Source of the DNA: Arcobacter acticola
GTDB lineage: Bacteria; Campylobacterota; Campylobacteria; Campylobacterales; Arcobacteraceae
DNA: 64,000 nt
Assembly: GCF_013177675.1 (NCBI RefSeq)
Contig: NZ_CP042652.1
Coordinates: 1,550,001-1,614,000, forward strand
Reading direction: 5' to 3'
The notes beneath the pieces were generated by a model that worked only from the letters and a program-made list of their open reading frames with translations, had not been told where the DNA came from and ran no database searches. A program made the position numbers and the translations under genes. Of this stretch, positions 40,963 to 57,265 are shown piece by piece (positions within the stretch are counted from its first letter, which is position 1; every line of letters starts with the position of its first letter).

Positions 40963-42450
40963 CTAGTTATGGTGGCTATTTAGCCGACCATTTATTATAT
41001 GATGATAAATCTCTTCATAACCTTGAGCTGCCTTACTCCACTCATATCGCTTACTCATAGCATTTGATCTCAATGCTTGCATACCTTCTTTATCATTATA
41101 ATAAACATCAACTGCCCATTGAACAGTATTAAGTAAAGCAATTGGACTTGCATCATAAAATTTAAATCCAGTACCACTTTTATGATAAGCATCGTAGTTT
41201 TCTATTGTATCATCAAGTCCACCTGTTGCTCTTACTATTGGAATAGTTCCATATCTTAAACTATATATTTGATTTAATCCACATGGCTCAAAAAGGGAAG
41301 GCATTAAAAACATATCACTTGCTGCTTCAATTTTATGGGCAATTGTATTATCATATCCAATATAACTTGCAAATTTTAGAGGATATTGTTCAGCTTTTTC
41401 TTTAAAAAACCTCTCTGCCCATTTTTCTCCTGTTCCCAAAAGTACTATTTGAATATCCATTTCAAGGATTCTCTCAAAACAACTTGAGATTAGGCCTATT
41501 CCTTTTTGTTCAGCTAAACGACCAACAAACCCAATCATAGGAACTTCTGAACGTTGTGGTAAATTAAACTCTTTTTGAAGTTCGGCTTTACATTTTTCTT
41601 TACCTTCTAAATTATCAATATCAAATGTAAAAGGTATTAATTTATCAATAGAAGGACTCCATTCATCGTAATCAACACCATTTAAAACACCAAAAAGTTT
41701 ATATTCATAATCATTTATAAGGCTTTGTAAACCAAAACCAAACTCAGAAGTTCGTATTTCTTGTGCATATTTTTTACTAACAGCATTTATTGCATCTGCA
41801 TGAACGATTCCACCTTTTAAAAAGTTTACACCATCATACTCTTCTAATTCTTTTACTGTAAAATGTTCCCAACCAACACCTAAAACATCCATTGCACCTT
41901 TATAAAACTTACCTTGATGCTCTAGGTTATGAATACTTAGAAGTGAGCCTGTATTTTTAAAAATAGGATCAAAAGCATATGTAGTGTTAAGTAATAAAGA
42001 AATAGGTGCTGTATGCCAATCATTTGCATGAATTACGTCAGGTCTAAAATCAAGTTTTTTAGCCAATTGCATTACTGCTTTTGAAAAAAAGATATAACGA
42101 TTGTCATTGTCACTAAATCCATCTGAGTCTTCACCATATAAACCTTTTCTTCCAAAAAATTCATCATACTCTATAAAATAAATAGGTACATCACTTTGTG
42201 GTAATTTACCCTCATAAACAGCGGCCCACATTTCACCCATACTTCCCATATGAACACTTAAAGCTCCCTCAAGAAGTTTAAGATTATATTTCTCTTTATC
42301 AACAACATAATAACGTGGCATTACAACTCTTATATCATGACCTAAATCTTTTAAAGCCTTAGGAAGAGCTCCTGAAACATCGGCTAATCCACCACTTTTT
42401 GCAAAAGGTACTACTTCTGATGCTGCTAATAAAATATTTAATTTTTTCAT
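40963..42450 (-). CDS. glgA: Glycogen synthase GlgA, copy 1
   Basis: This 495-residue GT5 enzyme lengthens alpha-1,4-glucan from ADP- or UDP-glucose. It shows the N-terminal substrate loop (VVPFAKSGGLADVSGALPKA), HANDWHTAPISLLL, GFVGRLAEQKGIGL and the C-terminal catalytic segment PSLFEPCGLNQIYSLRYG with ATGGLDDTI. Both Rossmann domains are complete. It lies eight bases before glgB and ten after copy 2. The two copies are clearly divergent paralogues, which suggests different roles such as priming and extension. Confidence 0.94.
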   Translation of the reverse strand: MKKLNILLAASEVVPFAKSGGLADVSGALPKALKDLGHDIRVVMPRYYVVDKEKYNLKLLEGALSVHMGSMGEMWAAVYEGKLPQSDVPIYFIEYDEFFGRKGLYGEDSDGFSDNDNRYIFFSKAVMQLAKKLDFRPDVIHANDWHTAPISLLLNTTYAFDPIFKNTGSLLSIHNLEHQGKFYKGAMDVLGVGWEHFTVKELEEYDGVNFLKGGIVHADAINAVSKKYAQEIRTSEFGFGLQSLINDYEYKLFGVLNGVDYDEWSPSIDKLIPFTFDIDNLEGKEKCKAELQKEFNLPQRSEVPMIGFVGRLAEQKGIGLISSCFERILEMDIQIVLLGTGEKWAERFFKEKAEQYPLKFASYIGYDNTIAHKIEAASDMFLMPSLFEPCGLNQIYSLRYGTIPIVRATGGLDDTIENYDAYHKSGTGFKFYDASPIALLNTVQWAVDVYYNDKEGMQALRSNAMSKRYEWSKAAQGYEEIYHHIINGRLNSHHN

Positions 42451-42460
42451 TTTCTCTCTT

Positions 42461-43879
42461 TTATAATTGCTTATATAATTTTACATACTGTTCTGCACTA
42501 TTTTTCCATGAAAAATCACAAAGCATATTATGTTTTACTATTTTGTTATAATCTTTTTTTGTAGAATAAAGTTTTATAGCTTCATCAAAACTATTAATCA
42601 AACTATCACTTGATGGTTTTTCAAATAAAATACCATAGCCTTTAGAAGATTTGTTATCAAATAATTTATAGTCATGAACTGTATCTTTAAGTCCACCTAC
42701 TTTATGAACAATTGGAATTGAGCCATAACTCATAGCTATCATTTGATTTAAACCACATGGTTCAAACAGTGAAGGCATCAAAAGAAAATCAGCTGCTGCA
42801 TACATTTGGTGAGATAAAACTTCATTGTATTTAAATTCAAAGTGAATATTATCGTATTCATTTACAATTTTCATGATTTTTTCTTGGTATATTTCTTCAC
42901 CATCTCCCAAAATTGCGATATTGCAATCACTAGAAGCAATTTGTTCAAGGGAATTTATAAGTAAATCAACCCCTTTTTGTTGGGTAAAACGACCGATAAA
43001 TATAAAAAGAGGTTTAGTGATTCCTTTTAAACTTTTTTCTTTTAGGTAGCTTTTTTTATTTAGTTTTTTTTCTGTTAGATTTGCAAAGGGATATTCTAAA
43101 AGTTTATCATGGGAAGGTGTAAAATGTTCATTATCAATTCCATTAATAATACCTGTTAATTTATTTTTATGATATCTTAAAAAACCATCTAAACCACAAC
43201 CAAAAGAAGCAGTTAAAATTTCATCTGCATAACTTTGACTTACTGTTGTAATTGCATCACTATAAGCAATTGCAGCTTTCATAAAATTAACTTTATTATA
43301 AAACTCCAAGACATCTGTTGTGAAATATTTTGAATCTATTCCTATCTCTTTTAATACTTCGTAGGCAAATAAACCTTGATATGCAAGATTATTAATAGTA
43401 AAAAGAGTTTTTGCTTTAATTAAACTCTCTTCTTGAAGTAAAAGTGGAACTAATGCTGTTTGCCAATCATTTAAATGCACTATATCATATGTATTATCTC
43501 TTAATATTTCAACAATGACACGGCAAAAAATAGCGAATCGAAGGGCATTATCAGCATATCCTTCTGTTGGAATACCATATAAAAATTCCCTATCACAAAG
43601 TAAGCTAGAGTAGATAAAAATATACTCAACTCCCCCGTAGTTGCATCCAAATAATTCTGCTGTATATTCAATATTATTCATTGAAATAGAAAAACTTTTT
43701 TTCAAAGATTTTATTGAGTATTTTTTCCTATTTATACAAGAATATAAAGGCATAACAACTTTAATATTATAAGTATCTCTTAAAGCTCTTGGTAGCGAAT
43801 GGGCAACATCAGCTAATCCACCTGTTTTCGCAAAAGGATAAACTTCGCTGGCACAAAATAGTAATGATTCTTTACTCAT
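42461..43879 (-). CDS. glgA: Glycogen synthase GlgA, copy 2
   Basis: This is a second GT5 synthase of 472 residues, with its own versions of every motif: VYPFAKTGGLADVAHSLPRA, HLNDWQTALVPLLLQ, FIGRFTQQKGVDLL and PSLFEPCGLNQMIAMSYG with KVGGLKDTV. The spacing of motifs is the same as in copy 1 but identity is modest, so this is not a recent tandem copy. Its start overlaps the end of galT by eight bases. Confidence 0.92.
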   Translation of the reverse strand: MSKESLLFCASEVYPFAKTGGLADVAHSLPRALRDTYNIKVVMPLYSCINRKKYSIKSLKKSFSISMNNIEYTAELFGCNYGGVEYIFIYSSLLCDREFLYGIPTEGYADNALRFAIFCRVIVEILRDNTYDIVHLNDWQTALVPLLLQEESLIKAKTLFTINNLAYQGLFAYEVLKEIGIDSKYFTTDVLEFYNKVNFMKAAIAYSDAITTVSQSYADEILTASFGCGLDGFLRYHKNKLTGIINGIDNEHFTPSHDKLLEYPFANLTEKKLNKKSYLKEKSLKGITKPLFIFIGRFTQQKGVDLLINSLEQIASSDCNIAILGDGEEIYQEKIMKIVNEYDNIHFEFKYNEVLSHQMYAAADFLLMPSLFEPCGLNQMIAMSYGSIPIVHKVGGLKDTVHDYKLFDNKSSKGYGILFEKPSSDSLINSFDEAIKLYSTKKDYNKIVKHNMLCDFSWKNSAEQYVKLYKQL

Positions 43880-44906
43880 ATAAACTCTCCCTTAATAATT
43901 TTGCAGCTAATTCAGGAGAAACAGGATTAATCAAAATATCTGTTTCTTGTTCAAAACCACCATATTTATAAATACGAGGAATAATTTGTATATAAAACCT
44001 ATTTGCTTCATACATAGAGTTCAATAACTCCTCACTAAAAGTATTTTCATGTAAAGGTGGAGTTGATAAAATAAGATTAAAATTCAAATACTTTAGTTGC
44101 TTTTTTAGCTTCTTTAAAACCAAAAGAAGTAAAGAAGATAACTCTTTTAAGGAATTATTACTCAAAGTATCAATCTCTCCTAAAGCTTTTGTTGAACTAA
44201 TCATAACTTCAAAAGGATGAGAACTAGCATATGGACAAAAAGCTGTAAACTCGCCATTTGAAGCTATAATTCTACTTTCATCGGCTTTTATTTCTTCTTC
44301 AATTAAAAGTTGAATAAGTGAATTTTGATTATGTTTATAATGCTCATATAATCGTTCATATTCTTCTTTCTTAGATTTTGCAACAATAGGAAGTCCTATT
44401 ATTTGAGTATGTGAATGTGGTTGAGTAGCACCTGCTTCAACACCCTCATTTTTGAACAAAGAAAGTGAAGCAATTCTTTTATCTTTTTTTAAATCCTTTA
44501 CTCGTAAACCAAGTGTTATAAACCAATCTATTATATTTTCTTCACTCCATTGTGTCATTGAAGTATAATGCTTTGCTGTATCTATTATAATTTCATGGGC
44601 ACCAAATCCATCCCAATGTTCAAACATTCCATAATGATGTTGATAAGGAGCTTCTATTTGTACAGCTTTAAATAGATTTGGTACAACACGTGTTTTCCAT
44701 CCTATTTCATTTGCAAAACTATCACTTGAACGCAAAGCAAAGATTTCATTTGGAGTAAATCTTTCATTTCCTTCACAAAATGGACAAACTCTTCGTTCTG
44801 TTCTACGTTCTATCTCATGAATATCACAAGATGTACGGTGTAATCGCTCAGGTGCAATAATAACATATGAATCTTTTAAACGGTTATAACGTATCTCAGA
44901 CATCAA
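43872..44906 (-). CDS. galT: GalT-family hexose-1-phosphate nucleotidylyltransferase
   Basis: This 344-residue protein of the galactose-1-phosphate uridylyltransferase family has the zinc site (CPFCEGNERFTP, about 40-51) and the active-site histidine triad region as QPHSHTQIIGLP (about 173-184). The usual form is HPHxQ; here the nucleophile-containing triad reads HSHTQ. No galK or galE is nearby. In this context it may move nucleotide groups between glucose-1-phosphate and other sugars, or act like the ADP-glucose phosphorylases of this family. It overlaps both neighbours. Confidence 0.85.
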   Translation of the reverse strand: MMSEIRYNRLKDSYVIIAPERLHRTSCDIHEIERRTERRVCPFCEGNERFTPNEIFALRSSDSFANEIGWKTRVVPNLFKAVQIEAPYQHHYGMFEHWDGFGAHEIIIDTAKHYTSMTQWSEENIIDWFITLGLRVKDLKKDKRIASLSLFKNEGVEAGATQPHSHTQIIGLPIVAKSKKEEYERLYEHYKHNQNSLIQLLIEEEIKADESRIIASNGEFTAFCPYASSHPFEVMISSTKALGEIDTLSNNSLKELSSLLLLVLKKLKKQLKYLNFNLILSTPPLHENTFSEELLNSMYEANRFYIQIIPRIYKYGGFEQETDILINPVSPELAAKLLRESLYE

Positions 44907-46950
44907 AAACCTCCAAAAAACCCACTAAGTTTAATGAATTTTCAAATAAAGTTTTCATGGCAAAACTTACACCTTGTGTACTTAAATCAAAACCATGTTC
45001 ACTTTGAGAAAGTGTTTTTAATTGGAAATAATAAATATCACAAGGAACTTGAATTTGAATGATAATTTTTTGATTAAGTAGTAAATCTTCAATCTCTAAA
45101 ATTTGAGTATTTTGTAAAACACCCTCTTGCCCTAAAACAACACCATTTATAAGAACTTTTTCATAATCTGCAAAGTGAAAATTATGTTCCATTATGTATT
45201 CAAATTTTTCTTTTGCTTCTGTTTTTAAATCAATAGCAAATTCAAAACCATTTTCATTTAAAATATAGGTTTTAGCTAATGTAGTATTTTTCTTAGTGTC
45301 TAAGTAAATTCCTCCATCTCTTACAAAAACAATACTCTCTTTTGTTTTTTCCACTTCAAAAGCTTGATTAGCAAAATCGCCAAACTCTTTAAAGTTTGCA
45401 TATTTAAAGTTATCTAAATTAAAATTAGCATCGGTAATATGATCTACAAAAGAATTTTTTAAATGCCAATCATAAACAATTGAATTACGTAATTCATCAG
45501 AAATTTCTACTGCTGCATGATGAATTGTATCTATACCATCTTTTGTCTCTTTATGGCTTTCTTCTACTTTTGGATTAAGTAAATGTTCATGATAAGCTTC
45601 TTTACGTCTCATAAGTGTATTTTGCCAGTTGAATTCATGTTTTCTTGAATCAAACTCTACTAATTGTCCACCATTTCCTGAATCAAATCTAAAGATAAAA
45701 TTTTGCGTAACTGCTTTTACTTTTTCATAACCATCAAGTTCATTCATATCACTTTGTAAAACTGTTTTTTTACCATAACGAATATTTTCAGCTTGAATAA
45801 TATAAGTATAAACGTTATCACGAAGATTTGGAAGATATAATCCTCCAAAAACTCCATGCCATAAAGAATCATTAGCTTGTGATTTATGTAATGCTAATTC
45901 AAATTTTTTCTTATTTACTTCATTTTTTGCTTTAGAAAGCTCAAGTGTTCGTTTATGAATACGATTACTCTCTTCATATTTAACTAAAAAGTTTTTCCAA
46001 ATTCCACCTTTTAAAAATTTAACACCCTCTTTTTCATAACGCTCTTCGCCCATCTCTTTTTTTAATAATTCAAGTTTAAGTGCATCATGTGCTCTTAAAC
46101 TCCATTCACCCATTTCATAATAAGAAGCATTAGGCAAATAAGCAATACCTCTTGGTTTTTCATTTTCAAAGTAAGTATCGAAATGCATAGTTTCAATTGT
46201 TTCATCAGCAATTACAGCTTGTACAAAAGATTCTAACCATTTTTTTTCATAAACCCATTCGTAAGTTCCTGGCCACATTCCAAATTTTTCTGCATCATCA
46301 AAAATAATAGCTGCTGAGTTTTTTTCTCTTCTAAAAGATTTAATTGCATCTATTGCACTTGAAACATTTAAAAATGGTATTGCGTATCGAAGTTTTTTAC
46401 TAATAGGGAAAAGCCCCATTTCTTTTCCACCCTCTTCACTCATAAAATAACCATCTAAGATCTCTTCATCAAAACCTGCACATTGAAAATGATAATCATC
46501 CATTACTGTGTATTTAATACCTGATTTATTTAAATCAGGGATTAAAGCTGATTCCCAAACTCTCTCTGTTAACCATAGACCTTTTGGTATTTGCTTGAAA
46601 TCCTTTTTTATTGAGTTACTTAGCATATCTATTTGGGCTACTCTATCCTCTGAAGGGATCACAGATAATATTGGTTCATAGTATCCAGCACTAAAAAACT
46701 CTATACTTCCTTTGTCTGCTAGATATTTTATATTTTTATAAACTTTTGGATGTTTACTTTTTATCTCTTCCATAAGCCATCCACTACAGTGTACAGCGAA
46801 TTTAAACTGTGGATATTTGCTCATAACTTCAAAAAATGGTCCATAACAAACCTCTACACCATGTTTGATTACCCAATCAAAATTATCGATTGGCTGATGC
46901 ATATGAATTCCAAAAAGTAGTTTAGTAGTATTTTTCATTTCTTTTTCCAT
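44896..46950 (-). CDS. GH57 4-alpha-glucanotransferase-type enzyme
   Basis: This protein of about 684 residues has a GH57 barrel followed by DUF1925/DUF1926-like beta domains. It shows LFGIHMHQPIDNFDW, the nucleophile region WLTERVWESALIPDL and the acid region IIFDDAEKFGMWPGTYEW. This matches the 4-alpha-glucanotransferase/amylopullulanase branch, which reshuffles maltodextrin chains. An open frame extends to a TTG at 46971, but the stop of the previous gene lies at 46959. I prefer ATG 46948-46950; ATG 46938 is also possible. Confidence 0.88.
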   Translation of the reverse strand: MEKEMKNTTKLLFGIHMHQPIDNFDWVIKHGVEVCYGPFFEVMSKYPQFKFAVHCSGWLMEEIKSKHPKVYKNIKYLADKGSIEFFSAGYYEPILSVIPSEDRVAQIDMLSNSIKKDFKQIPKGLWLTERVWESALIPDLNKSGIKYTVMDDYHFQCAGFDEEILDGYFMSEEGGKEMGLFPISKKLRYAIPFLNVSSAIDAIKSFRREKNSAAIIFDDAEKFGMWPGTYEWVYEKKWLESFVQAVIADETIETMHFDTYFENEKPRGIAYLPNASYYEMGEWSLRAHDALKLELLKKEMGEERYEKEGVKFLKGGIWKNFLVKYEESNRIHKRTLELSKAKNEVNKKKFELALHKSQANDSLWHGVFGGLYLPNLRDNVYTYIIQAENIRYGKKTVLQSDMNELDGYEKVKAVTQNFIFRFDSGNGGQLVEFDSRKHEFNWQNTLMRRKEAYHEHLLNPKVEESHKETKDGIDTIHHAAVEISDELRNSIVYDWHLKNSFVDHITDANFNLDNFKYANFKEFGDFANQAFEVEKTKESIVFVRDGGIYLDTKKNTTLAKTYILNENGFEFAIDLKTEAKEKFEYIMEHNFHFADYEKVLINGVVLGQEGVLQNTQILEIEDLLLNQKIIIQIQVPCDIYYFQLKTLSQSEHGFDLSTQGVSFAMKTLFENSLNLVGFLEVFDV

Positions 46951-46958
46951 TTCTTTTT

Positions 46959-48989
46959 TTACACAAACCAATTAGCTGTGTATTTTTCATCTAAATTAAT
47001 GGCAAGTGCACCATAGCCAGGCATTGTTTGTATAATTTCTTTTCCTTGAAGAATTTCAAAACGTAGATGAATCTGTTTACAATCTACGCAATTCATTTTA
47101 GAAAGTTCTAATTCTATACGTTCATCAATTGCAAACTTGACACCATTTTCATTGTATTCATCATTCATTGAAAAAGATATTGTTTTTTGCATCTGTTCTA
47201 TATAAATTTCAAGTACAAGATTTGATGTTTTAAGTAAATTTATCTCTCCTTCAAAAGCTAGATATATCTTATTTTCATCTTGACCATAATATATTTTTTC
47301 AATTGGACCACGAACTCTATCCATGGTTGAATAAAGTTTACTTTCATCTATACTTCCAGCTCCCATCCATTCAAAAAAAGAGCTAACTTTACCATCAATA
47401 TCTGGAGTGATAGAGCATTGAGGCATAATTAAAAAAGAAGCCCCGCTTTTATGGGAAATAATAGGTACAAATAAATCAGCTGGTGGATGAGCATTTAGAA
47501 GTTTGTAAATAAGTATTAGATGTTCTCTAAATAATGTATCAAATTCCAATCCAAATTCTGTTATATGATCATCTCCATACCACCAAAACCAGTCACTACA
47601 TTGGGCCACTAAAAAGTGTGATTCAATCTGTTTTTTAATATCTTCAGATATATTTTCTTTATGATGTTCATAATCCCGTTTTGTTTGATATATAAGTTCC
47701 CACGCACGATTTTTTTCACTATTCCCAGACCATGTATCAAAATTTCCATGAATCCAACTTCCAGGAGCTAGTTTTTCAAGAGTTCCCCTATTTTCTATCT
47801 TACTTGCTTCGTCCATAGTAACTGTTTTGCACCAAGTTGTTGATTCAAAACGACTATAAAGAGCATTAAAAAAATCATAGGCATTATTATGAAAAAACTC
47901 CCATGCATTTTCTCCATCTAAAATAACAAAAAGAGTTGAATCTTCATTTTTAGAAATAGGTTCAATTACTTCCATAAAATGATCACTTGCTTCTTTTCCT
48001 GATTTAAATCTATAATTAAATCCTATTAAATCACTTAGTGCATGGTCTCTAAATCCAATACTTACACCATTAAAATCATAGGGCTTATAAAGATTTTCTC
48101 GGGTATTATCTTCTAAAGAACGAAATAAAATAGCCTCATCAGTTGCAATCCAAGATATACCTCTTTGCTTATAAATTAAAATACTCTCCTCATCAACAGC
48201 ACCTTCAGCAGGCCAAAATCCACTTGGTTTAGAACCAAAAGTATCTTCAAAAAGTTTTATTGATTTTTCAACTTGCTCTATTGCATCATCCCTTAATGAA
48301 ATATGATTTTCCACGATGCTAGTGTGCTCATTTGCATATTTTGCATTTTCCATATTTAAAAGCAATGGTAAGATAGGATGATTATAAGGTGTAGTTGAAA
48401 GGGAAATGCTTCCTTCTTTTTGTAACTTTGCGTAAAAAGGTAAAATTGTTTTTATAAACTCTGTTAATGTATCTAGTAAATCAATTTTATCTTTTTGTGT
48501 ATAGTTCTTCTCTTTTTTAAAAAGTTTCTTTATAAAACTGTTTTCAAGTCTGAGGTAATTTCCACACCAAGAAAGTATAAAAAGAACTTCAAAATCAATT
48601 AATTCATCTTCACTAAGAGACTCTTTATCATAAAGAATTCTAAAATGCCCTATTGGTTTAACCATAGTTTCGTATTGTGTTGATTTACATGTTTTTATTA
48701 GCCAAACTCTTTGTTTCTCTTCTAACTCTTTAGGCTCTTTGGCCCAAAGAGATAAAAAGTAATCATTTTTCAAAGGATCACTGTATAAGTTTAATTGCTC
48801 TATAAGTGGTGCTGTTATATTAAAACTTGCCTTGACACCTTTATAAAGACTTAAAAGCCAAGGCATTTCATAATAGTCTTTAATACCATGAAGAAAAACC
48901 CATGGCATACTCATTACTCCATCCATCCCTCTATAATCTGGCTGATGCATATGCCAGAAAAAACATAGATTAAGAGAATCTTGTGACAT
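46959..48989 (-). CDS. GH57 family glycoside hydrolase (alpha-amylase type)
   Basis: This 676-residue protein of the COG1449 branch of GH57 has LCFFWHMHQPDYRG at the N-terminus and the nucleophile region SGFWPAEGAVDEESI (about 258-272). LFVILDGENAWEFFHNNAY (about 355) provides the second acid. No signal peptide is present, so it acts on internal glucan. It is distinct from the neighbouring GH57 enzyme. Stop and start of the two overlap, pointing to one operon with the fusion gene upstream. Confidence 0.88.
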   Translation of the reverse strand: MSQDSLNLCFFWHMHQPDYRGMDGVMSMPWVFLHGIKDYYEMPWLLSLYKGVKASFNITAPLIEQLNLYSDPLKNDYFLSLWAKEPKELEEKQRVWLIKTCKSTQYETMVKPIGHFRILYDKESLSEDELIDFEVLFILSWCGNYLRLENSFIKKLFKKEKNYTQKDKIDLLDTLTEFIKTILPFYAKLQKEGSISLSTTPYNHPILPLLLNMENAKYANEHTSIVENHISLRDDAIEQVEKSIKLFEDTFGSKPSGFWPAEGAVDEESILIYKQRGISWIATDEAILFRSLEDNTRENLYKPYDFNGVSIGFRDHALSDLIGFNYRFKSGKEASDHFMEVIEPISKNEDSTLFVILDGENAWEFFHNNAYDFFNALYSRFESTTWCKTVTMDEASKIENRGTLEKLAPGSWIHGNFDTWSGNSEKNRAWELIYQTKRDYEHHKENISEDIKKQIESHFLVAQCSDWFWWYGDDHITEFGLEFDTLFREHLILIYKLLNAHPPADLFVPIISHKSGASFLIMPQCSITPDIDGKVSSFFEWMGAGSIDESKLYSTMDRVRGPIEKIYYGQDENKIYLAFEGEINLLKTSNLVLEIYIEQMQKTISFSMNDEYNENGVKFAIDERIELELSKMNCVDCKQIHLRFEILQGKEIIQTMPGYGALAINLDEKYTANWFV

Positions 48990-51496
48990 TATAGTTTAGA
49001 CCACTCTGAGATTTTTTCACTATAATCAGCTAGTATTTTTTCACCTTTTTCAGTACTTTCAGCTTGAATATAAATATTCAAATGGTCATTATATTGATCT
49101 GGAATCATTAATATCCAATCATTTGTATCAAGCCAAATTTTTACTCCATCAAGAGTTGAAGACTCTTTACCATGGGCATCTTCAAGGAACATTCGCATCA
49201 TTTTTCCTTTAAGTGCTTGTGGGCATTTTATCTCTGAAGATTGATAATAAAACTTAGGCATTGAAGCTATAACTTTTGATAATGTTACATCTAAAGAAAT
49301 CATCATTTCTAAGATTTTTAATGTTGCATACATTGAATCACGGTGAGTTGAAAACTCTATAAAAGTAAAATTACCTTCTCCTGTAGCTATAAGATCATAT
49401 TGTTTTAACTGCTTGCTTGTAAAGTTTGCATATTGTCCACGTGAAATATTTAAAGAATCAAAATAAACTATATCAGCAGCCCAAGTTGGAAGGAAAACAT
49501 TTTTCTTAATACCTTCTTTTTTTGCTTGCATATTTAAAAGTGTTAATACAGCATACAATGAGCCTTGTTTACCAAGAGGTATTCCATCATCACAAACTAT
49601 GTCTAAACGTTGTCCATAAGGATAAATCATAAATCCAGCATTAAGTTTAAGTGCTTTAATAACAGCACCCATATCTTCTGTTGAACGTTTTATAAGTTTA
49701 TTAATATTTTCTAAACTAGATTCATCAGCATAGGCATTAAACATTATATTATCTACACCCATTTCATTTAAAACTTCAGGGAATAATTCAGTTGCCATTC
49801 CATGCATCATATCAACTGCAATTCTGCAACCAACACATTTAAACTGATGTGAATTAAGTAAATTTTTTACAGCATCTTTATACATCTGATACTCTTTAAC
49901 CTGATCAGACTCATAGATTTTTCCGATTTTTGAATAATCTACTCTACGAAATGCATCTTTGAAAAAGGCTTTTTCAATTTTTTTAGAGATATCATTATTT
50001 ATTCTAAGCGCTTCATGGTTATAAAATGTAAGAACAGTACTAGAGGCATCTTCTAGTTTTTGGCAGAAATATACACCTGCTGTGTAATTATCATGAATAA
50101 ATAAACTATGTCGTAAGACAGCCGTTGGTAAATCTTTATAATCTATTACATTAACACCAGCTGATAAAAGACCTCCTAAAAATGCACGTTTAAGCATACG
50201 AGAGTTTTTATGATAATCCCTTGAAACAAGTACAGTTGAACCAACAGGAAGTTGAGCACCAAAAGCTTCTGCAAGTTTAGTTACCATTTCACAAGAAAGT
50301 TCTACATTTGAATGCCCTACTACCATTCCATTTTCAAAAATAGAATTTTTATATTTACTTCCTAGAATTAAACTATTACTTACAATTGAAGCATCTTCAA
50401 TTATTTTATCTGCCCAAATTGTTACATCTTTTTCAACAGTAACAAGTTGTCCAATTTCACAACCTTCTGCTAAAATAAGACCAGCTTTTACTGTAACATT
50501 TTTCCCAATTAAATTGTTGTTACAAATTACACAAGCATCTAACATAGCATTTTTGCCAACTTCAACATCATTCCAAATAACAGTATTTCTGATTTTTGAA
50601 TTAAGCCCAATACTAACATTGTCTCCTAAAACAACATTACTAAGCTTCACACCCTTACTTAATTTTACATTTTTACCTAAAACTACGGTTCCAATTATTT
50701 CTATACTTTTGTCAAATTCATATGGAACTTCACTGTATAAAACACCATCAGGGAAAACTACTTTTTTACCAGGAATTTTAATATTTACTTTTCCTGTTAA
50801 TATATCTTCATATACATCACGATAACTTTCAGGATTTCCTACATCTCTCCAATAACCTTCTGCATTTCCAGCTATTAGTTCAACGCCTTCTTTCATTAGT
50901 CTTGGAAAAAGATCTTTACCAAAATCATAGTTTTCATTTTTTGGAATATATTTCAAAATTTCTGGTTCAATTATATAAATACCTGTATTAATAGTATCAC
51001 TAAAAACTTCTCCCCAACTTGGCTTTTCTAAAAACTTCTCAATTCTTCCTTCAGCGTTTGCAATAACAACTCCAAATTCTAAAGGATTTTCTACAGATGT
51101 AAGAGTGATACTTAACTTTGCATTCTTTTCTTTATGATAATCAAAAATCTTTTGAAAATCAAAATCAGTAACTAAATCTCCACTAATAATAATGAAGTTT
51201 TCATCACCAATTAAATCCTCTGCTAATTTTACAGCTCCTGCTGTGCCAAAATCTTCATCTGGAACCACATATGTAATTTTAATACCAAAATCACTTCCAT
51301 CACCAAAATAATCTTTTATAATTTGAGGCTTGAAATAAAGTAACACAATAAACTCTTTGATACCTAAATCTCTAAGAGTCATCATTGTATGTTCCATCAT
51401 GGGTTTATTTATAATTGGTAACATTGGTTTTGGACGAGAATTTGTTAGTGGTTGAATTCTTGTTCCAAAGCCACCTGCCATTACAACTGCTTTCAT
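48989..51496 (-). CDS. Nucleotidyltransferase / hexapeptide / phosphohexomutase-like fusion
   Basis: This 835-residue protein has three parts. Residues 1-230 form a sugar-phosphate nucleotidyltransferase (MAGGFGTRIQPLTNSRPKPM, then GDLVTDFDF and GYWRDVGNPESY). Residues about 250-385 form left-handed hexapeptide repeats. The rest (about 395-835) resembles the phosphoglucomutase/phosphomannomutase fold. In that last part the usual TASHNP serine loop is absent and the DGDxDR metal loop is replaced by YPYGQRLDIV, so it is probably not a working mutase. It may make NDP-glucose for the two GlgA enzymes in the absence of glgC. Confidence 0.88.
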   Translation of the reverse strand: MKAVVMAGGFGTRIQPLTNSRPKPMLPIINKPMMEHTMMTLRDLGIKEFIVLLYFKPQIIKDYFGDGSDFGIKITYVVPDEDFGTAGAVKLAEDLIGDENFIIISGDLVTDFDFQKIFDYHKEKNAKLSITLTSVENPLEFGVVIANAEGRIEKFLEKPSWGEVFSDTINTGIYIIEPEILKYIPKNENYDFGKDLFPRLMKEGVELIAGNAEGYWRDVGNPESYRDVYEDILTGKVNIKIPGKKVVFPDGVLYSEVPYEFDKSIEIIGTVVLGKNVKLSKGVKLSNVVLGDNVSIGLNSKIRNTVIWNDVEVGKNAMLDACVICNNNLIGKNVTVKAGLILAEGCEIGQLVTVEKDVTIWADKIIEDASIVSNSLILGSKYKNSIFENGMVVGHSNVELSCEMVTKLAEAFGAQLPVGSTVLVSRDYHKNSRMLKRAFLGGLLSAGVNVIDYKDLPTAVLRHSLFIHDNYTAGVYFCQKLEDASSTVLTFYNHEALRINNDISKKIEKAFFKDAFRRVDYSKIGKIYESDQVKEYQMYKDAVKNLLNSHQFKCVGCRIAVDMMHGMATELFPEVLNEMGVDNIMFNAYADESSLENINKLIKRSTEDMGAVIKALKLNAGFMIYPYGQRLDIVCDDGIPLGKQGSLYAVLTLLNMQAKKEGIKKNVFLPTWAADIVYFDSLNISRGQYANFTSKQLKQYDLIATGEGNFTFIEFSTHRDSMYATLKILEMMISLDVTLSKVIASMPKFYYQSSEIKCPQALKGKMMRMFLEDAHGKESSTLDGVKIWLDTNDWILMIPDQYNDHLNIYIQAESTEKGEKILADYSEKISEWSKL

Positions 51497-51652: not shown

Positions 51653-53326
51653 ATGAAACTTCACAACTACGAATTTGATTTAAAATATAAAAAAAGTGTA
51701 GCTTATTTTTCGATGGAATTTGCTATTCATCAAGCTTTAAAAATATATTCAGGTGGATTGGGATTTTTAGCTGGTTCGCATATGAGAAGTGCATACGATT
51801 TAAAACAAAATATAGTAGGTATTGGTATTTTATGGAGTTATGGATATTATGATCAAGCTCGTAATGAAGAAGGCTACTTAAAAGCTGATTTTATAAGAAA
51901 GTACTACTCTTATTTAAAAGATTTAGGAATTTTAGCTAGAGTAACAATATGTGGAAAAGAAGTTTTTGTTAAAGCTTATTATTTAGCACCTAATATATTT
52001 AATAGTGCTCCACTTATTTTACTTTCTACTGATATAGAAGAAAATGACTATCTATCAAGAACTATCACTCAGAAACTTTATGATGCAAATGAAGAGACTC
52101 GTATATCTCAAGAGATTATATTAGGTATTGGTGGTGTAAAAGTTTTAGATGCTCTAAATCAAAAAATAGAAATTTATCATATGAATGAAGGACATGCTCT
52201 TCCTTTAGTATATGAGCTTTACAATAAATATGAATCTTTGGAAAAAGTAAAAGAAAAAGTAATATTTACAACTCACACACCTGAAGATGCAGGTAATGAA
52301 GAACATGATATTTCTCTATTACATAAATTTGGTTTTTTTAGTGCCCTTTCATTAGATAAAGTAAGAGAGATAACACTAGTTAAAGAAGAGAAGTTTAACC
52401 TTACTATTGGAGCACTAAGAGCTAGCAAAAGAACAAATGCAGTTTCTAAATTACATGGTCTTGTAACAAACAAGATGTGGGATAGTTGCAAAAGTGCCTC
52501 AGAAATAACATCTATTACAAATGCACAAAATAAAAACTTCTGGATGGATAAACAAATTTTAAAAGCTTTCCAAAAAAACAAAACAAAAGATCTTATTGAA
52601 CGTAAAAAAGTTCTAAAACAAAAACTTTTTAAAATAGTTGCAGACCAAACAGGAAAATTGTTTGATGAAAATATTCTTACTTTAGTTTGGGCTAGAAGGT
52701 TTGCTGATTATAAACGACCTGACTTAATAAAAAAAGATTATGAACGTTTTAAAAGAATAATTGAAAATGAAACAAAACCAGTTCAAATAATCTGGGCAGG
52801 GAAACCTTATCCTTTTGATATAAAAGCAATGAATATATTTAATGATTTGATTAGCACAAGTCATTCTATAAAAAATGTAGCCGTTTTAATTGGCTATGAA
52901 CTTAATCTTTCAAGAGCACTAAAATGTGGTGCTGATATTTGGATTAATACACCTAGAATATCAAGGGAAGCTAGTGGTACAAGTGGTATGACAGCTGCTA
53001 TGAATGCTGCGATTCATTTTTCAACAGATGATGGTTGGCATCCTGAGTTTGCAAAAGATGGAATAAATGCATTTACTATTCCACCAATAAATCACGATGT
53101 ACCTATACAAGAGCAAGATGAACTAGACAATAAAAATATGATGGATATTTTGGAAAATATAATAGTTCCTACATATTATGATAATCCAAAAAAATGGCTA
53201 GAAATTATGAAAAATTCAATTAATGATATTCTTCCAACATTTGATTCAGATCGAATGGCAGATGAGTATTATAAAAAGATGTATCTATTTGGAAACAATC
53301 TGCAAAAGGATATAACAGATGAATAA
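51653..53326 (+). CDS. GT35 alpha-glucan phosphorylase homologue lacking the PLP lysine
   Basis: This 557-residue protein matches the short form of glycogen/maltodextrin phosphorylase. It has YSGGLGFLAGSHMRSAYDL, HMNEGHALPLVYEL, TTHTPEDAGNEEHD, LVWARRFADYKRPDL and WINTPRISREASGTSGMTAA. In active GT35 enzymes the last motif reads GM-Lys or NM-Lys, with that lysine holding PLP. Here codon ACA (52991-52993) gives Thr447. It also lacks the usual end after GWW. It may not be a phosphorylase at all, but a glucan-binding regulator or a transferase with changed chemistry. It overlaps the next gene by eight bases. Confidence 0.85.
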   Translation: MKLHNYEFDLKYKKSVAYFSMEFAIHQALKIYSGGLGFLAGSHMRSAYDLKQNIVGIGILWSYGYYDQARNEEGYLKADFIRKYYSYLKDLGILARVTICGKEVFVKAYYLAPNIFNSAPLILLSTDIEENDYLSRTITQKLYDANEETRISQEIILGIGGVKVLDALNQKIEIYHMNEGHALPLVYELYNKYESLEKVKEKVIFTTHTPEDAGNEEHDISLLHKFGFFSALSLDKVREITLVKEEKFNLTIGALRASKRTNAVSKLHGLVTNKMWDSCKSASEITSITNAQNKNFWMDKQILKAFQKNKTKDLIERKKVLKQKLFKIVADQTGKLFDENILTLVWARRFADYKRPDLIKKDYERFKRIIENETKPVQIIWAGKPYPFDIKAMNIFNDLISTSHSIKNVAVLIGYELNLSRALKCGADIWINTPRISREASGTSGMTAAMNAAIHFSTDDGWHPEFAKDGINAFTIPPINHDVPIQEQDELDNKNMMDILENIIVPTYYDNPKKWLEIMKNSINDILPTFDSDRMADEYYKKMYLFGNNLQKDITDE

Positions 53327-56285
53327 TGAAAATATAAATATTTTACTTGATAAAAACTTTAATTCAATTAATAAGATAATACTATCTAGACAAGATGTAA
53401 TTACAGGATTGCTTCCTGCAAGTACCGCAATAAATGCCCATGGAGATTATACAGATGCTTGGGTAAGAGATAATGTATACAGTATACTTAGTGTTTGGGG
53501 ACTTTCTTTAGCATATAAAAAACATGCCCCTGAACATTATCGAGCACATATTTTAAAACAAAGTGTTGTTAAGTTAATGCGTGGTCTTTTAATAGCAATG
53601 ATGAGACAATCTAATAAAGTAGAAGCTTATAAACAAAGTCATAATCCCCTTGATGCATTACATGCAAAATATGCTACAGATACAGGACTTGCAGTTGTAG
53701 GAGATGATGAATGGGGACATTTACAACTAGATGCAACTTCACTTTTTGTTCTTATGATTGCACAAATGACAGCTTCTGGACTTTCATTGATTTATACTAT
53801 GGATGAGGTAGATTTTGTACAAAATCTTGTGCATTACATAAGTAGAACTTACTCAACTCCTGATTATGGAATTTGGGAAAGAGGAAATAAAATCAACCAT
53901 GGTACAGCTGAGATAAACTGCAGTTCTGTTGGTATGGCAAAAGCAGCTTTAGAAGCTATGAGTGGATTTAATCTTTTTGCTAATAGTAAGTCACAAGAAG
54001 GTGTTATACATATTGTTGCAAATGATATTGCACGTTCACGTTCAACTCTTAAAAGTCTTTTACCTAGAGAATCTGATTCTAAAGAAACAGATGCTGCACT
54101 ATTAAGTATTATTGGCTATCCAGCTTATGCTATTGAAGATGAAAATCTAGTACAAAAAACCAGAGATAAAATTATAAATAAATTAGCAGGAGAATATGGT
54201 TGTAAAAGATTTTTACTTGATGGTCATCAAAGTAGTATTGAAGATTCTTCTCGTTTACATTATGAGCCTTCTGAACTTTATGAATTTGCAGATATAGAAT
54301 CAGAATGGCCTTTATTTTTTACATATCTTTTATTAGATGCTTTAATGCGTGAAGATGAAAAAGCTATAAATATGTGGAAAAAGAAACTAGAACCTCTTTT
54401 TGTTGAGGAAGATGGTGAAAAACTTCTTCCTGAATTGTATATTGTTCCTTTTGAAAATATCGAAGCAGAAAAAGCAAATCCTAAATCACAAAAAAGAGTA
54501 GCAAATGAAAATCTACCTTTAGTTTGGGCACAAAGTTTATATATGCTAAGTGAAATGATTCTAGAAGGTATCTTAGAAATCAATGATATTGATCCACTTT
54601 CAAGAAGAAAAGTCATTGGTAAAAAAGTTACTTCAACACCTCTTGTTTGTATAATCTGTGAAAATGATGGTGTAAAAGAGCATTTGAGAGGGTTTAACAT
54701 AGAATCACAAACTCTTCATGAAGTAGAACCAATAAGCTGTATGCATGCATCTGAACTTTCAAAAATATACTCAGTACTTGGGAAAAATGAAAAACTAGGA
54801 CTTACAGGAAGAGATTTATTAACAGCTAGAACTGTAAGTACCTCACGTTTACATATTTTAAATGGGGAAACAACACTTTTTTTCCCATATTATTTTGATC
54901 CAAAAGCTTTTTACTTTGGTTTTGATAATAATCTACTTGTGGAACACTATATTTCTTCTTTACGATTTGCAGCTTCATCATGGACTCAAAGTAAAAGACC
55001 AGTAATTGCCTTTTTAGTAAGAGAAGATATGCTAAGAGATCACTCAAAAGATGTAATTATAAAATTGCTTTTAGACTTACAATCAAACTCTTGTGAGACA
55101 GTAAAAATAGAAAATGTAAAAGCTGAAGCATTAATTGAACTTGCAGGAAGCGAGAAAATTGATTCTATTAAAACAATACAACTAGAAGCCCTATCTATTC
55201 AAGGTGTAGGTAAAAATAAAGAAGAGTATGAACTAGCTGCAATGCAACATGATTGGACTCAAGTAAGAAGTATCGCTCAAAAAAATGAGATTTATGATAT
55301 ACGAGTGGAAGATGCATTAATAGACATACTTATTGCTCAAAAACGTTTAGCTGTTGGACGAGCTTATAGTGTTGATGCAATAATAGATAAACCCCAAAAA
55401 GCATCTGAAATCATACAAACTATTTCAAAATACTGTGGAGAAAACAACGCAGAAAAAGTTCTAACACAAGAAATCATTTTACATATAGGTCATCTTATTA
55501 AAATAGAGCCTGAACTTTTTACAAATATGCTAACCCTTCGAACTTGGGATTGTATACAGCTTTTAGTAGGACATATAAGTAAAGAAAAATCTCTATCTTT
55601 AGGTGATGCTTATGAAGAACTACTAAGATATGCACCTTATGGTATTTATGATACTTTACGTTTTATATTTAAATCATATTCTCAAGAAGTTAAACAGTTA
55701 AAAGAGTTGGAAAATTTCTGTGTTTTAGGAGCTAAAAATTTAGATATTTCTATACCTAAAAAAAGTGAACACAATGAAATTAGTGAAATTACAGATTGGG
55801 CGGTATGGAGAGAAAAAGTAGCAAGAATTGGAACTTTAAGAGAAAGTTTCTATGAAGATGTTTGGAATATTTTAAAACAATGTAATGGCTTAGTAATTGG
55901 AGACAAATATAGCACTCAAAGTAGAATTGGTTCAGAACTAACCCTTGAGTCAACAATAGGAGAGCGAAGTTTTGAGTTAAAAATTGATTCACTTCTACAA
56001 AGTATTGCAATACCTGTTTACAAAAAACTAAACATAGAATTAATAGAGACTTTAGTAGAACTATTTCTTGCAAATCCAAAACTATATATTCAAAATGATC
56101 TTATATTAGATGTTCTAATAGGTCATGCAGTAAGAATTGCTTGGATGAAGAAAAATAGTGAAAAAAATTATGATGAATATAAAGGCGAGGCATGGAGTTC
56201 TTTTTATAAACTCTCTGTAGATGAAGTTCAAGAAAATTTTATTGAAGCATTTAGCTTCTTAATGAAAGAAGAGGATTTAAAATGA
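53319..56285 (+). CDS. Phosphorylase-kinase alpha/beta-like protein (GH15-related fold)
   Basis: This 988-residue protein resembles the regulatory alpha/beta subunits of eukaryotic phosphorylase b kinase. These have an N-terminal (alpha/alpha)6 barrel related to GH15 glucoamylases. Key segments are GLLPASTAINAHGDYTDAWV, RDNVYSILSVWGLSLAY, DEWGHLQLDATSLFVLM, YGIWERGNKINHGTAEINCS and LPLVWAQSLYMLSEMI. The latter half (about 600-988) is helical. Bacterial homologues are known but their role is unclear. Being fused by overlap to a PLP-less phosphorylase homologue suggests the two proteins work together. Confidence 0.85.
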   Translation: MNNENINILLDKNFNSINKIILSRQDVITGLLPASTAINAHGDYTDAWVRDNVYSILSVWGLSLAYKKHAPEHYRAHILKQSVVKLMRGLLIAMMRQSNKVEAYKQSHNPLDALHAKYATDTGLAVVGDDEWGHLQLDATSLFVLMIAQMTASGLSLIYTMDEVDFVQNLVHYISRTYSTPDYGIWERGNKINHGTAEINCSSVGMAKAALEAMSGFNLFANSKSQEGVIHIVANDIARSRSTLKSLLPRESDSKETDAALLSIIGYPAYAIEDENLVQKTRDKIINKLAGEYGCKRFLLDGHQSSIEDSSRLHYEPSELYEFADIESEWPLFFTYLLLDALMREDEKAINMWKKKLEPLFVEEDGEKLLPELYIVPFENIEAEKANPKSQKRVANENLPLVWAQSLYMLSEMILEGILEINDIDPLSRRKVIGKKVTSTPLVCIICENDGVKEHLRGFNIESQTLHEVEPISCMHASELSKIYSVLGKNEKLGLTGRDLLTARTVSTSRLHILNGETTLFFPYYFDPKAFYFGFDNNLLVEHYISSLRFAASSWTQSKRPVIAFLVREDMLRDHSKDVIIKLLLDLQSNSCETVKIENVKAEALIELAGSEKIDSIKTIQLEALSIQGVGKNKEEYELAAMQHDWTQVRSIAQKNEIYDIRVEDALIDILIAQKRLAVGRAYSVDAIIDKPQKASEIIQTISKYCGENNAEKVLTQEIILHIGHLIKIEPELFTNMLTLRTWDCIQLLVGHISKEKSLSLGDAYEELLRYAPYGIYDTLRFIFKSYSQEVKQLKELENFCVLGAKNLDISIPKKSEHNEISEITDWAVWREKVARIGTLRESFYEDVWNILKQCNGLVIGDKYSTQSRIGSELTLESTIGERSFELKIDSLLQSIAIPVYKKLNIELIETLVELFLANPKLYIQNDLILDVLIGHAVRIAWMKKNSEKNYDEYKGEAWSSFYKLSVDEVQENFIEAFSFLMKEEDLK

Positions 56286-57265
56286 TATTAGCAGGTGATA
56301 TAGGTGGAACAAAAACAAATTTAGCTCTTTATACTTATAAAGATGGGGCTTTAGAAATACAAGTACAACATCAGTTTGTATCACAAAAATATCAAAATTT
56401 TTCTGATGTGATAGAAGAGTTTATTTCATCTTATAAAATTGAAAATATAGAAGCTGTTTGTTTAGGAATCGCAGGTCCCATTATAAATGGTGTTTGTAAA
56501 ACTACAAATCTTCCTTGGACTATAGACTCAAAAGAACTTCAAATAGTATGCAATACTTCAAAAGTAAAATTATTAAATGACCTAGAAGCCACAGCTTATG
56601 GAATGCTTTATCTAAATGAAGATGAATTTGTAGATGTAAATCCAAATGGGAAAAAAGTAGATGCAAATCGTGCAGTAATCGCTGCTGGAACTGGTCTTGG
56701 AGAAGCGATATTATTTTATAATGGTGAAAACTATTATCCAATAGGTTCAGAAGGTGGGCATTGTGATTTTGCAGCACAGAATTCTTTACAAGATGAACTT
56801 TTAGTTTGGATGAGAAAACGTCATCCTGAGCATGTTAGTGTAGAACGACTTGTATCAGGAATTGGTATTTATACGATCTATGAGTTTTTAAAAGAGAAGA
56901 ATTTTGCAAAAGAATCAAAAATAATGCTTGAATTAAATGAATCAGATGATAAAAATGCCATGGTTACAAAATGTGCTTTAGAAGGTGATACTTTATGTAC
57001 TAAAGCTATAAAAATATTTGTAGAGATATATGGAGCAGAAGCTGGAAATCTTGCATTAAAATCTTTATCATTGGGTGGAGTTTATATAGGTGGGGGAATT
57101 GCTCCTAAAATTTTACCTTTTTTATTAGATGGCAATTTTTTAAATGCATTTGCTGCAAAAGGACGTTTTCAAGAAACACTTATAAATATGCAAATTAAAA
57201 TATCATTAAATCAAAATACTGCACTTTTAGGATCTGCACACTTTGCAGTTGACAAAGTTAGATAA
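56282..57265 (+). CDS. glk: Glucokinase
   Basis: This 327-residue glucokinase phosphorylates free glucose using ATP. It has the ATP loop LAGDIGGTKTNLALY (about 3-17), the sugar-binding LLNDLEATAYGMLYL, AAGTGLGEAILFY and GSEGGHCDFAAQ. It is of the Glk (not ROK) type. Its ATG overlaps the stop of the previous gene (four bases). It can return glucose released by the GH57 and GH15-like proteins to glucose-6-phosphate. Confidence 0.93.
   Translation: MILAGDIGGTKTNLALYTYKDGALEIQVQHQFVSQKYQNFSDVIEEFISSYKIENIEAVCLGIAGPIINGVCKTTNLPWTIDSKELQIVCNTSKVKLLNDLEATAYGMLYLNEDEFVDVNPNGKKVDANRAVIAAGTGLGEAILFYNGENYYPIGSEGGHCDFAAQNSLQDELLVWMRKRHPEHVSVERLVSGIGIYTIYEFLKEKNFAKESKIMLELNESDDKNAMVTKCALEGDTLCTKAIKIFVEIYGAEAGNLALKSLSLGGVYIGGGIAPKILPFLLDGNFLNAFAAKGRFQETLINMQIKISLNQNTALLGSAHFAVDKVR

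Follow-up and report, generated by a model that had tools for sequence, protein, structure and literature searches.

Glycogen phosphorylase is a textbook case of an enzyme in which only the phosphate of pyridoxal phosphate (PLP) is put to use. The cofactor of PLP phosphorylases acts via this group and the Schiff base is an anchor, and loss of the lysine that forms it is ordinarily expected to abolish both PLP binding and activity. The retaining trehalose phosphorylases of family GT4 are presumably PLP-free. The closest described relatives of the protein studied here are the Lys-bearing phosphorylases of TIGR02094, the Escherichia coli enzymes GlgP and MalP (TIGR02093) and, within the same fold, the GT5 glycogen synthase GlgA. 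The PLP lysine of MalP is named as K646 in a review (PMC11046441), which also holds the proposal that PLP was adopted by an NDP-sugar-dependent proto-GT35 enzyme, where it replaced a nucleoside monophosphate. According to another review (PMC8950772), GT4 and GT35 phosphorylases likely share a front-face mechanism with the phosphate itself as the proton donor. Among the open-licence papers searched, no description was found of a GT35 clade without the cofactor lysine.

The window, by which we mean the whole 64,000-nucleotide stretch of Arcobacter acticola DNA analyzed, holds an uninterrupted open reading frame (ORF) of 557 amino acids from an ATG at 51653 to a stop at 53326, with an AGGA 6 nt upstream of the ATG; the intact gene and ribosome site claimed in an earlier sequence-only reading are thus both present. 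The protein scored 450.4 bits with TIGR02094 (cut-off, 191.7) and 55.7 with PF00343 (cut-off, 27), which places it in GT35, and only 34.0 bits with the GlgA model TIGR02095 (cut-off, 328.45), which keeps it out of GT5. It is the single protein of the family in its genome (one P0001 match, one PF00343 match and one TIGR02094 protein in two stretches). Codon 447 reads ACA, as the sequence-only reading had it, inside EASGTSGMTAAMN, and the encoded threonine aligns with Lys646 of MalP and Lys662 of GlgP. The Schiff-base lysine that defines PLP-dependent glycogen phosphorylase (EC 2.4.1.1) is therefore replaced by Thr447. The following features of the gene all lie on the plus strand:

51653-53326, plus strand: lysine-less GT35 (TIGR02094) alpha-glucan phosphorylase-like protein, 557 aa (ORF, HMM matches and AlphaFold2 model)
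52694-52717, plus strand: RRFADYKR, with Arg349 and Lys354 (MalP Arg535/Lys540; GlgA Arg300/Lys305), in 127/127 lysine-less rows
52892-52900, plus strand: Gly414-Tyr415-Glu416, with Gly instead of the Asn/Asp of Lys-bearing rows and a new, invariant Glu416
52922-52924, plus strand: Lys424, invariant in lysine-less rows and absent from the other aligned groups, a candidate relocated lysine
52967-52996, plus strand: EASGTSGMTA motif, with Glu439 and the GTSG loop retained
52991-52993, plus strand: ACA, Thr447, at the PLP-lysine position (codon read directly)

The same substitution was sought in related genomes. In the phylum Campylobacterota, the P0001 search had matches in 44 of 298 genomes. 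The short form represented by the window protein was found in 38 of the 298 (57 to 70% identity, the window's own aside), and a paralogue of about 700 aa was found in 15, 10 of which also had the short form. The remaining genome (G053) had broken GT35 pieces only; its gene lies in three pieces at G053:C1:456699-458228 and the genome has no GlgA above the cut-off, which fits loss of the glycogen pathway. All 38 short forms, the window's own included, lack the lysine (Ser in 25, Thr in 12 and Ala in 1), and it is present in all 8 of the 15 long paralogues that were read. A TIGR02094 search, which is independent of the motif, found the short type in 24 of 198 genomes of Algibacter's phylum, Bacteroidota. 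Ser or Thr occupied the position in all 22 loci fetched without the motif from 21 of these 24 genomes; of the other three, G298 and G300 are represented by loci of a motif-pattern scan and G484 was left out of the residue reading. The conserved GT35 protein without its PLP lysine suggested by the sequence-only reading thus exists in both phyla.

Furthermore, a scan of the genome collection with the lysine-less motif pattern gave at least 119 loci, a lower bound on the spread of this type, and all 119 ORFs match P0001. Their titles name Bacteroidota, Verrucomicrobiota, Melainabacteria, Campylobacterota, Halopseudomonas and a few alphaproteobacterial metagenome-assembled genomes (MAGs), the last perhaps mislabelled or mixed. 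From 149 motif-bearing ORFs (30 via the P0001 search and 119 via the pattern scan), 105 uncut ORFs with a recognisable N-terminus were kept and aligned with the 22 Bacteroidota loci, giving 127 lysine-less rows. The position held Thr in 97, Ser in 29 and Ala in 1 of these, although 75 of the 127 came from the pattern scan and, being selected on the motif, are uninformative on fixation, for which the motif-free counts are those of the 38 Campylobacterota proteins and 22 Bacteroidota loci. In the 52 rows found independently of the motif, the residues were Thr 28, Ser 23 and Ala 1; all four Melainabacteria rows, likewise derived from the pattern scan, have Ser. Lysine is present in 39/39 aligned TIGR02094 paralogues and in both E. 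coli enzymes.

A maximum-likelihood tree of 59 rows, built from an alignment that included the lysine column, joined all 40 lysine-less rows, Melainabacteria among them, in one clade with support of 100/99 and a long stem (1.02). When the tree is rooted on MalP and GlgP, lysine stands on either side outside this clade, so that a single loss is the simpler reading. The lysine-less type is a large, multi-phylum family and not one odd gene. The sequence-only reading had proposed to look for a clade with fixed threonine; the clade is there, but its residue is Ser, Thr or Ala and not Thr alone.

The rest of the catalytic site is retained. With the E. coli enzymes MalP, GlgP and GlgA as yardsticks, the alignment showed Gly34-Gly35, His208, Asn290, Arg349, Tyr353, Lys354, Glu439 and Gly442-Thr443-Ser444-Gly445 to be invariant in 127/127 lysine-less rows, with the limit that the pattern that supplied 75 of them covers part of the GTSG motif. 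A set of 35 lysine-less rows has 104 invariant columns. Five positions are altered together with the lysine, namely, 291, 414, 416, 420 and 424. Position 291 is Ala or Ser in lysine-less rows and Gly in 39/39 Lys-bearing rows. Position 414 is Gly in 124/127 lysine-less rows and in 6 of 7 GT5 rows, and Asn or Asp in all 39 Lys-bearing rows. Glu416 occurs in 127/127 lysine-less rows and in no other aligned row, and position 420 is Ser in 127/127 against Ala in 38 of the 39 Lys-bearing rows. Lys424 is found in 127/127 and in the four Melainabacteria rows, at a position where the Lys-bearing rows have Val (32), Ile (6) or Thr (1), MalP and GlgP have Ile, and none of the seven GT5 rows has Lys. Tyr415 is retained in 126/127 lysine-less rows.

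Judged from the alignment and the contacts made in related enzymes, the five changed positions would line the cofactor pocket. We take the counterpart of Tyr415 to be Tyr648 in rabbit phosphorylase, where it stacks on PLP, and Tyr355 in GlgA, where it stacks on adenine; Ser420 presumably corresponds to the PLP contact Ala653 of the rabbit enzyme. A convergence of the pocket on GT5 through Pro385 and Ser420, which match E. coli GlgA, failed when seven GT5 rows were compared (Pro in 1/7 and Ser in 3/7), and of the GT5-like pocket positions, only Gly414 stood up. At the GTSG loop and at Tyr353, the clade follows the phosphorylases and not GT5. Since the loop is still that of a phosphorylase, a phosphate-bearing ligand is likely to sit there in the lysine-less type, and it is the carrier of this phosphate that has probably changed.

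The AlphaFold2 model of the 557-aa protein (pLDDT, 91.7) has a predicted two-domain GT-B fold. Among solved structures, it is most similar to 9l6i, the glycogen phosphorylase of Segatella copri (Z, 36.1; 538 residues aligned; 2.2 Å), which has the PLP lysine, and MalP with glucose 1-phosphate (1l5v) was matched with a Z of 32.5. E. coli glycogen synthase with ADP (2qzs) followed with a Z of 31.4 over 442 residues at 3.1 Å. All 35 sampled members of the clade matched TIGR02094 at E values up to 0.001; at the same limit, the GlgA model matched 24 of the 35 lysine-less members versus 5 of 21 Lys-bearing ones. The whole profiles are, however, about equally far from GT5 (E of 4.1e-10 for the lysine-less and 6.6e-11 for the Lys-bearing type), so that no general approach of the lysine-less clade to GT5 is claimed.

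The genomic setting in the window is a glycogen cluster, with the GT35-like gene at the head of a plus-strand group and most partners on the other strand:

39002-40954, minus strand: GlgB branching enzyme (TIGR01515, 846 bits)
40963-42450, minus strand: GlgA copy 1 (TIGR02095, 536 bits)
42461-43879, minus strand: GlgA copy 2 (TIGR02095, 497 bits)
43872-44906, minus strand: GalT/HIT-like nucleotidyltransferase
44896-46971, minus strand: GH57 amylase/4-alpha-glucanotransferase-like protein
46959-48989, minus strand: GH57 protein
48989-51496, minus strand: nucleotidyltransferase/phosphoglucomutase-like (NTP/PGM) fusion, divergent from the GT35-like gene (HMM)
53319-56285, plus strand: GH15 plus KPBB_C protein, homologue of phosphorylase kinase alpha/beta subunits, overlapping the GT35-like gene by 8 nt (HMM)
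56282-57265, plus strand: glucokinase (glk), overlapping the preceding gene by 4 nt (HMM)

The overlapping plus-strand genes thus run from the GT35-like gene through the GH15/phosphorylase-kinase-like gene to glk. The sequence-only reading had the GT35-like gene first in an operon with glk; its place holds, but glk is third. The order recurs in a second locus (L266). The GH15/KPBB_C protein scored 586 bits with the alpha and 502 bits with the beta subunit of human phosphorylase kinase. KPBB_C was found in only 6 of the 296 Campylobacterota genomes searched, each of which has the lysine-less type, and, among 14 controls, only in Synechococcus elongatus; a bacterial origin for the link of phosphorylase with its kinase subunits is possible. 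The gene for the GalT/HIT-like nucleotidyltransferase recurs in the glycogen clusters; the protein falls under the galT cut-offs, and its substrate might be ADP- or UDP-glucose. The two GlgA genes that lie side by side in the window differ from each other, and two hits were obtained in 24 of 44 GlgA genomes.

Across Campylobacterota, regions were chosen from 27 of the 38 genomes with the lysine-less gene (L156, in G058, was left out, and the gene in L269 was placed by the P0001 search). In 25 of the 27, the window included, the gene lies within a glycogen cluster, either beside the NTP/PGM gene or at the opposite end; the partners are the NTP/PGM fusion, two GH57 genes, the GalT-like gene, one or two copies of GlgA, a ROK kinase and, in many cases, GlgB. 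In the other two regions (L267 and L283), none of its neighbors was recognised as a glycogen gene. A PGM or PGI gene lies at most two genes away in 12 of the 27 regions, and none is so near in 15. In four of the five genomes that have only the Lys-bearing paralogue (G006, G129, G224 and G264), the paralogue sits in the same glycogen cluster, separated from the NTP/PGM gene by zero to four genes.

Outside this phylum, the neighbors were mostly unrelated to glycogen in the Bacteroidota, Verrucomicrobiota and Melainabacteria loci examined, and across the 119 motif loci no shared neighbor family appeared beyond small groups (the largest non-GT35 cluster covers 18/119). The few alpha-glucan neighbors include a maltokinase-like gene near L138 5374-6981 (Schleiferia) and the GH31 and GH13 genes that flank the lysine-less gene in L060 216-6398 (a Flavobacteriaceae MAG). 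Two further observations concern Bacteroidota. Half-length GlgA proteins with the GT5 N-terminal domain only (269 and 270 aa) are encoded at L233 7166-7972 and L235 6960-7769, beside ORFs that by eye resemble pantothenate synthetase and glucosamine-6-phosphate synthase, and further frames of about 258 to 297 aa match the N-terminal half of GlgA only, also in genomes without a full GlgA. In addition, L230 2237-4069 (G466) is a short Lys-bearing GT35 ORF whose start resembles a YHS metal-binding domain and whose neighbors seem metal related, both by eye.

The distribution of the two types is close to either-or. A glgA gene above the cut-off was found in 44 of the 298 Campylobacterota genomes, 43 of which have the lysine-less and/or the Lys-bearing type (both, 10; lysine-less only, 28; Lys-bearing only, 5; neither, 1; Fisher P = 0.013). 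In 28 of its 38 genomes, the lysine-less protein hence has no other member of the phosphorylase family beside it, and where both types coexist (10/38), their jobs are perhaps different. In Bacteroidota, sorted by score pattern (two half-length matches for the lysine-less type and one full-length match for the long type), the long type was found in 0/24 lysine-less genomes versus 109/174 others (Fisher P = 6e-10, kinship ignored); of the 109 long-type genomes, the 30 best were read at the position and have lysine. Among the 22 genomes reached via named loci, the lysine-less protein is the sole TIGR02094 protein in 21, the exception being the genome of L096. This either-or pattern may be due to kinship and not to function. 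As it stands, it is the pattern of one enzyme substituting for another in the same job, which favors phosphorylase-like glycogen breakdown over synthesis.

Taken together, we put at about even chances the explanation that the window protein, a member of a lysine-less GT35 clade, works as an alpha-glucan phosphorylase-type enzyme, filling the role of glycogen phosphorylase without Schiff-base PLP. It draws on homology, the predicted fold, the lysine-less clade, the kept catalytic and phosphate-site residues, the position of the gene among glycogen genes and its either-or relation to the Lys-bearing paralogues; the substrate, product and ligand are those that we infer. The non-reducing end of glycogen would bind between the two GT-B domains, and inorganic phosphate would be held by Arg349/Lys354 and the Gly34-Gly35 loop and would attack by front-face (SNi-like) transfer to yield glucose 1-phosphate. 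The PLP phosphate would be replaced by that of a non-covalent ligand at the retained GTSG loop, most likely a nucleotide, or else free PLP or pyridoxamine phosphate (PMP), or a second phosphate. The GH15/phosphorylase-kinase-like protein and glucokinase encoded in the window would handle limit dextrins and glucose. Against this explanation stand the ordinary expectation, given at the outset, for a phosphorylase deprived of its lysine, the ten Campylobacterota genomes with both types, the 15 regions with no PGM or PGI close by and the two without a recognised glycogen gene, and the mostly unrelated neighbors outside that phylum. A wider proposal, possible if on balance doubtful, is that an old multi-phylum GT35 lineage gave up covalent PLP and, with a nucleotide in its remodelled PLP pocket, carries out phosphorolysis of alpha-glucans or transfer to them, as a living counterpart of the proposed nucleotide-dependent ancestor, reached through the single lysine change plus Gly414, Glu416, Ser420 and Lys424.

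The strongest competitor, still unlikely, is that members of the clade are alpha-glucan glucosyltransferases that depend on a nucleotide sugar, working as a synthase or, in reverse, with NDP as the acceptor; a nucleotide would then sit where PLP does in phosphorylases, like the ADP of glycogen synthase. The glycine before the stacking tyrosine, shared with most GT5 rows, the match of the model to ADP-bound GlgA and the more frequent hits of the GlgA model to lysine-less members all speak for it. The PLP-lysine position also lies eight residues after Glu439, where the second Glu would sit in the E-x7-E motif that we take to be typical of NDP-sugar enzymes of the GT-B fold. The whole profile is nevertheless no nearer to GT5 than that of the Lys-bearing type, and the GTSG loop and Tyr353 remain those of a phosphorylase. 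Furthermore, the lysine-less type excludes other phosphorylases and not GlgA, and known synthases are mostly present already, with two GlgA genes in the window itself. The proto-GT35 ancestor proposed in PMC11046441 would accord with a nucleotide-sugar-dependent enzyme. The related idea that the lysine-less protein is a missing glycogen synthase found little support: of the 22 named-locus genomes, 14 have GT5 above the cut-off, 3 have GT3, 1 (G305) has a full-length GT5 match of 285 bits, under the cut-off, and 4 (G298, G304, G310 and G313) have neither. Among these four, G298 has glgC and glgB above cut-offs and a 402-aa frame adjoining glgC with an 83-bit GlgA match, and G304 has a GT4-type protein.

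It is decidedly improbable that the protein is still a PLP enzyme whose Schiff-base lysine has shifted to Lys424, on a neighboring helix that would face the pocket. The strict conservation of Lys424 within the clade and its absence elsewhere suit such a shift, as do the unaltered phosphate-binding side and the distance of one helix turn from Ser420, the presumed counterpart of a PLP contact. The helix geometry is, however, itself deduced, and the change of Asn/Asp to Gly and the other substitutions would be unnecessary for a simple shift.

Slightly less probable again is that the protein has no catalytic activity and binds glucan as a scaffold or sensor, regulating the GH15/phosphorylase-kinase-like protein or glycogen synthase, an idea that the lost lysine and the phosphorylase-kinase-like gene next in line (in the window and L266) might suggest. 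A dead enzyme should show catalytic losses beyond the lysine, but the other checked residues are invariant, and a sensor is not expected to retain a full catalytic site. The supposed partner gene is present in 6/296 genomes only, against 38/298 for the lysine-less gene, which moreover stands without another phosphorylase in most of its genomes. Of the two options in the sequence-only reading, a glucan sensor or an enzyme with new chemistry, the enzyme thus fits and the sensor does not; its term PLP-free may go too far, as PLP could be bound non-covalently or on Lys424. A sequencing error or a lone recent mutation at codon 447 is ruled out, with next to no chance left to it, since the orthologues (38/38 short forms in the phylum and 22/22 Bacteroidota loci) all lack the lysine.

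These results bear on what PLP is needed for, a question made testable by a natural clade in which the catalytic site is kept and the lysine is gone, and on whether PLP replaced a nucleotide in an ancestral glycosyltransferase, which becomes testable as well. The textbook reaction may have a second form without an anchored cofactor. Many "alpha-glucan phosphorylase" annotations in Bacteroidota, Verrucomicrobiota and Campylobacterota may wrongly imply the usual cofactor, and the lysine-less protein is the only GT35 enzyme in most genomes examined (28/38 and 21/22). Being GT35 by sequence and fold without the PLP lysine, these proteins should for now not be filed as PLP-dependent EC 2.4.1.1. They fall under an existing family model, TIGR02094, and what seems new is the description of the clade as one without the cofactor lysine.

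Compared with known systems, the lysine-less type is closest to the Lys-bearing TIGR02094 phosphorylases (S. copri 9l6i/20yr and the Campylobacterota paralogues of about 700 aa), with which it shares GT35 sequence, fold, catalytic residues and location in glycogen clusters. It differs from them in having Ser, Thr or Ala for the lysine, in the five altered positions and in forming its own clade, and it is shorter at the N-terminus than the paralogues by about 100 residues, the family match beginning at residue 110 of the L154 paralogue. E. coli GlgP and MalP have the same fold (MalP, 1l5v), the Arg/Lys phosphate site and a similar GT-x-x-M loop, but identity to them is about 20%, and the lysine-less protein is far shorter (557 versus 796 aa) and without the PLP lysine. 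The GT5 enzyme GlgA (E. coli, with ADP, 2qzs) resembles it in the GT-B fold, in the equivalents of Arg300, Lys305 and Glu377 and in the Gly-Tyr preceding the helix, whereas the lysine-less type has GTSG where GT5 has GL-N/T-Q and Tyr353 where GT5 has Gln. The retaining trehalose phosphorylases of GT4, of another family and with another substrate, are set beside this GT35 clade by description only.
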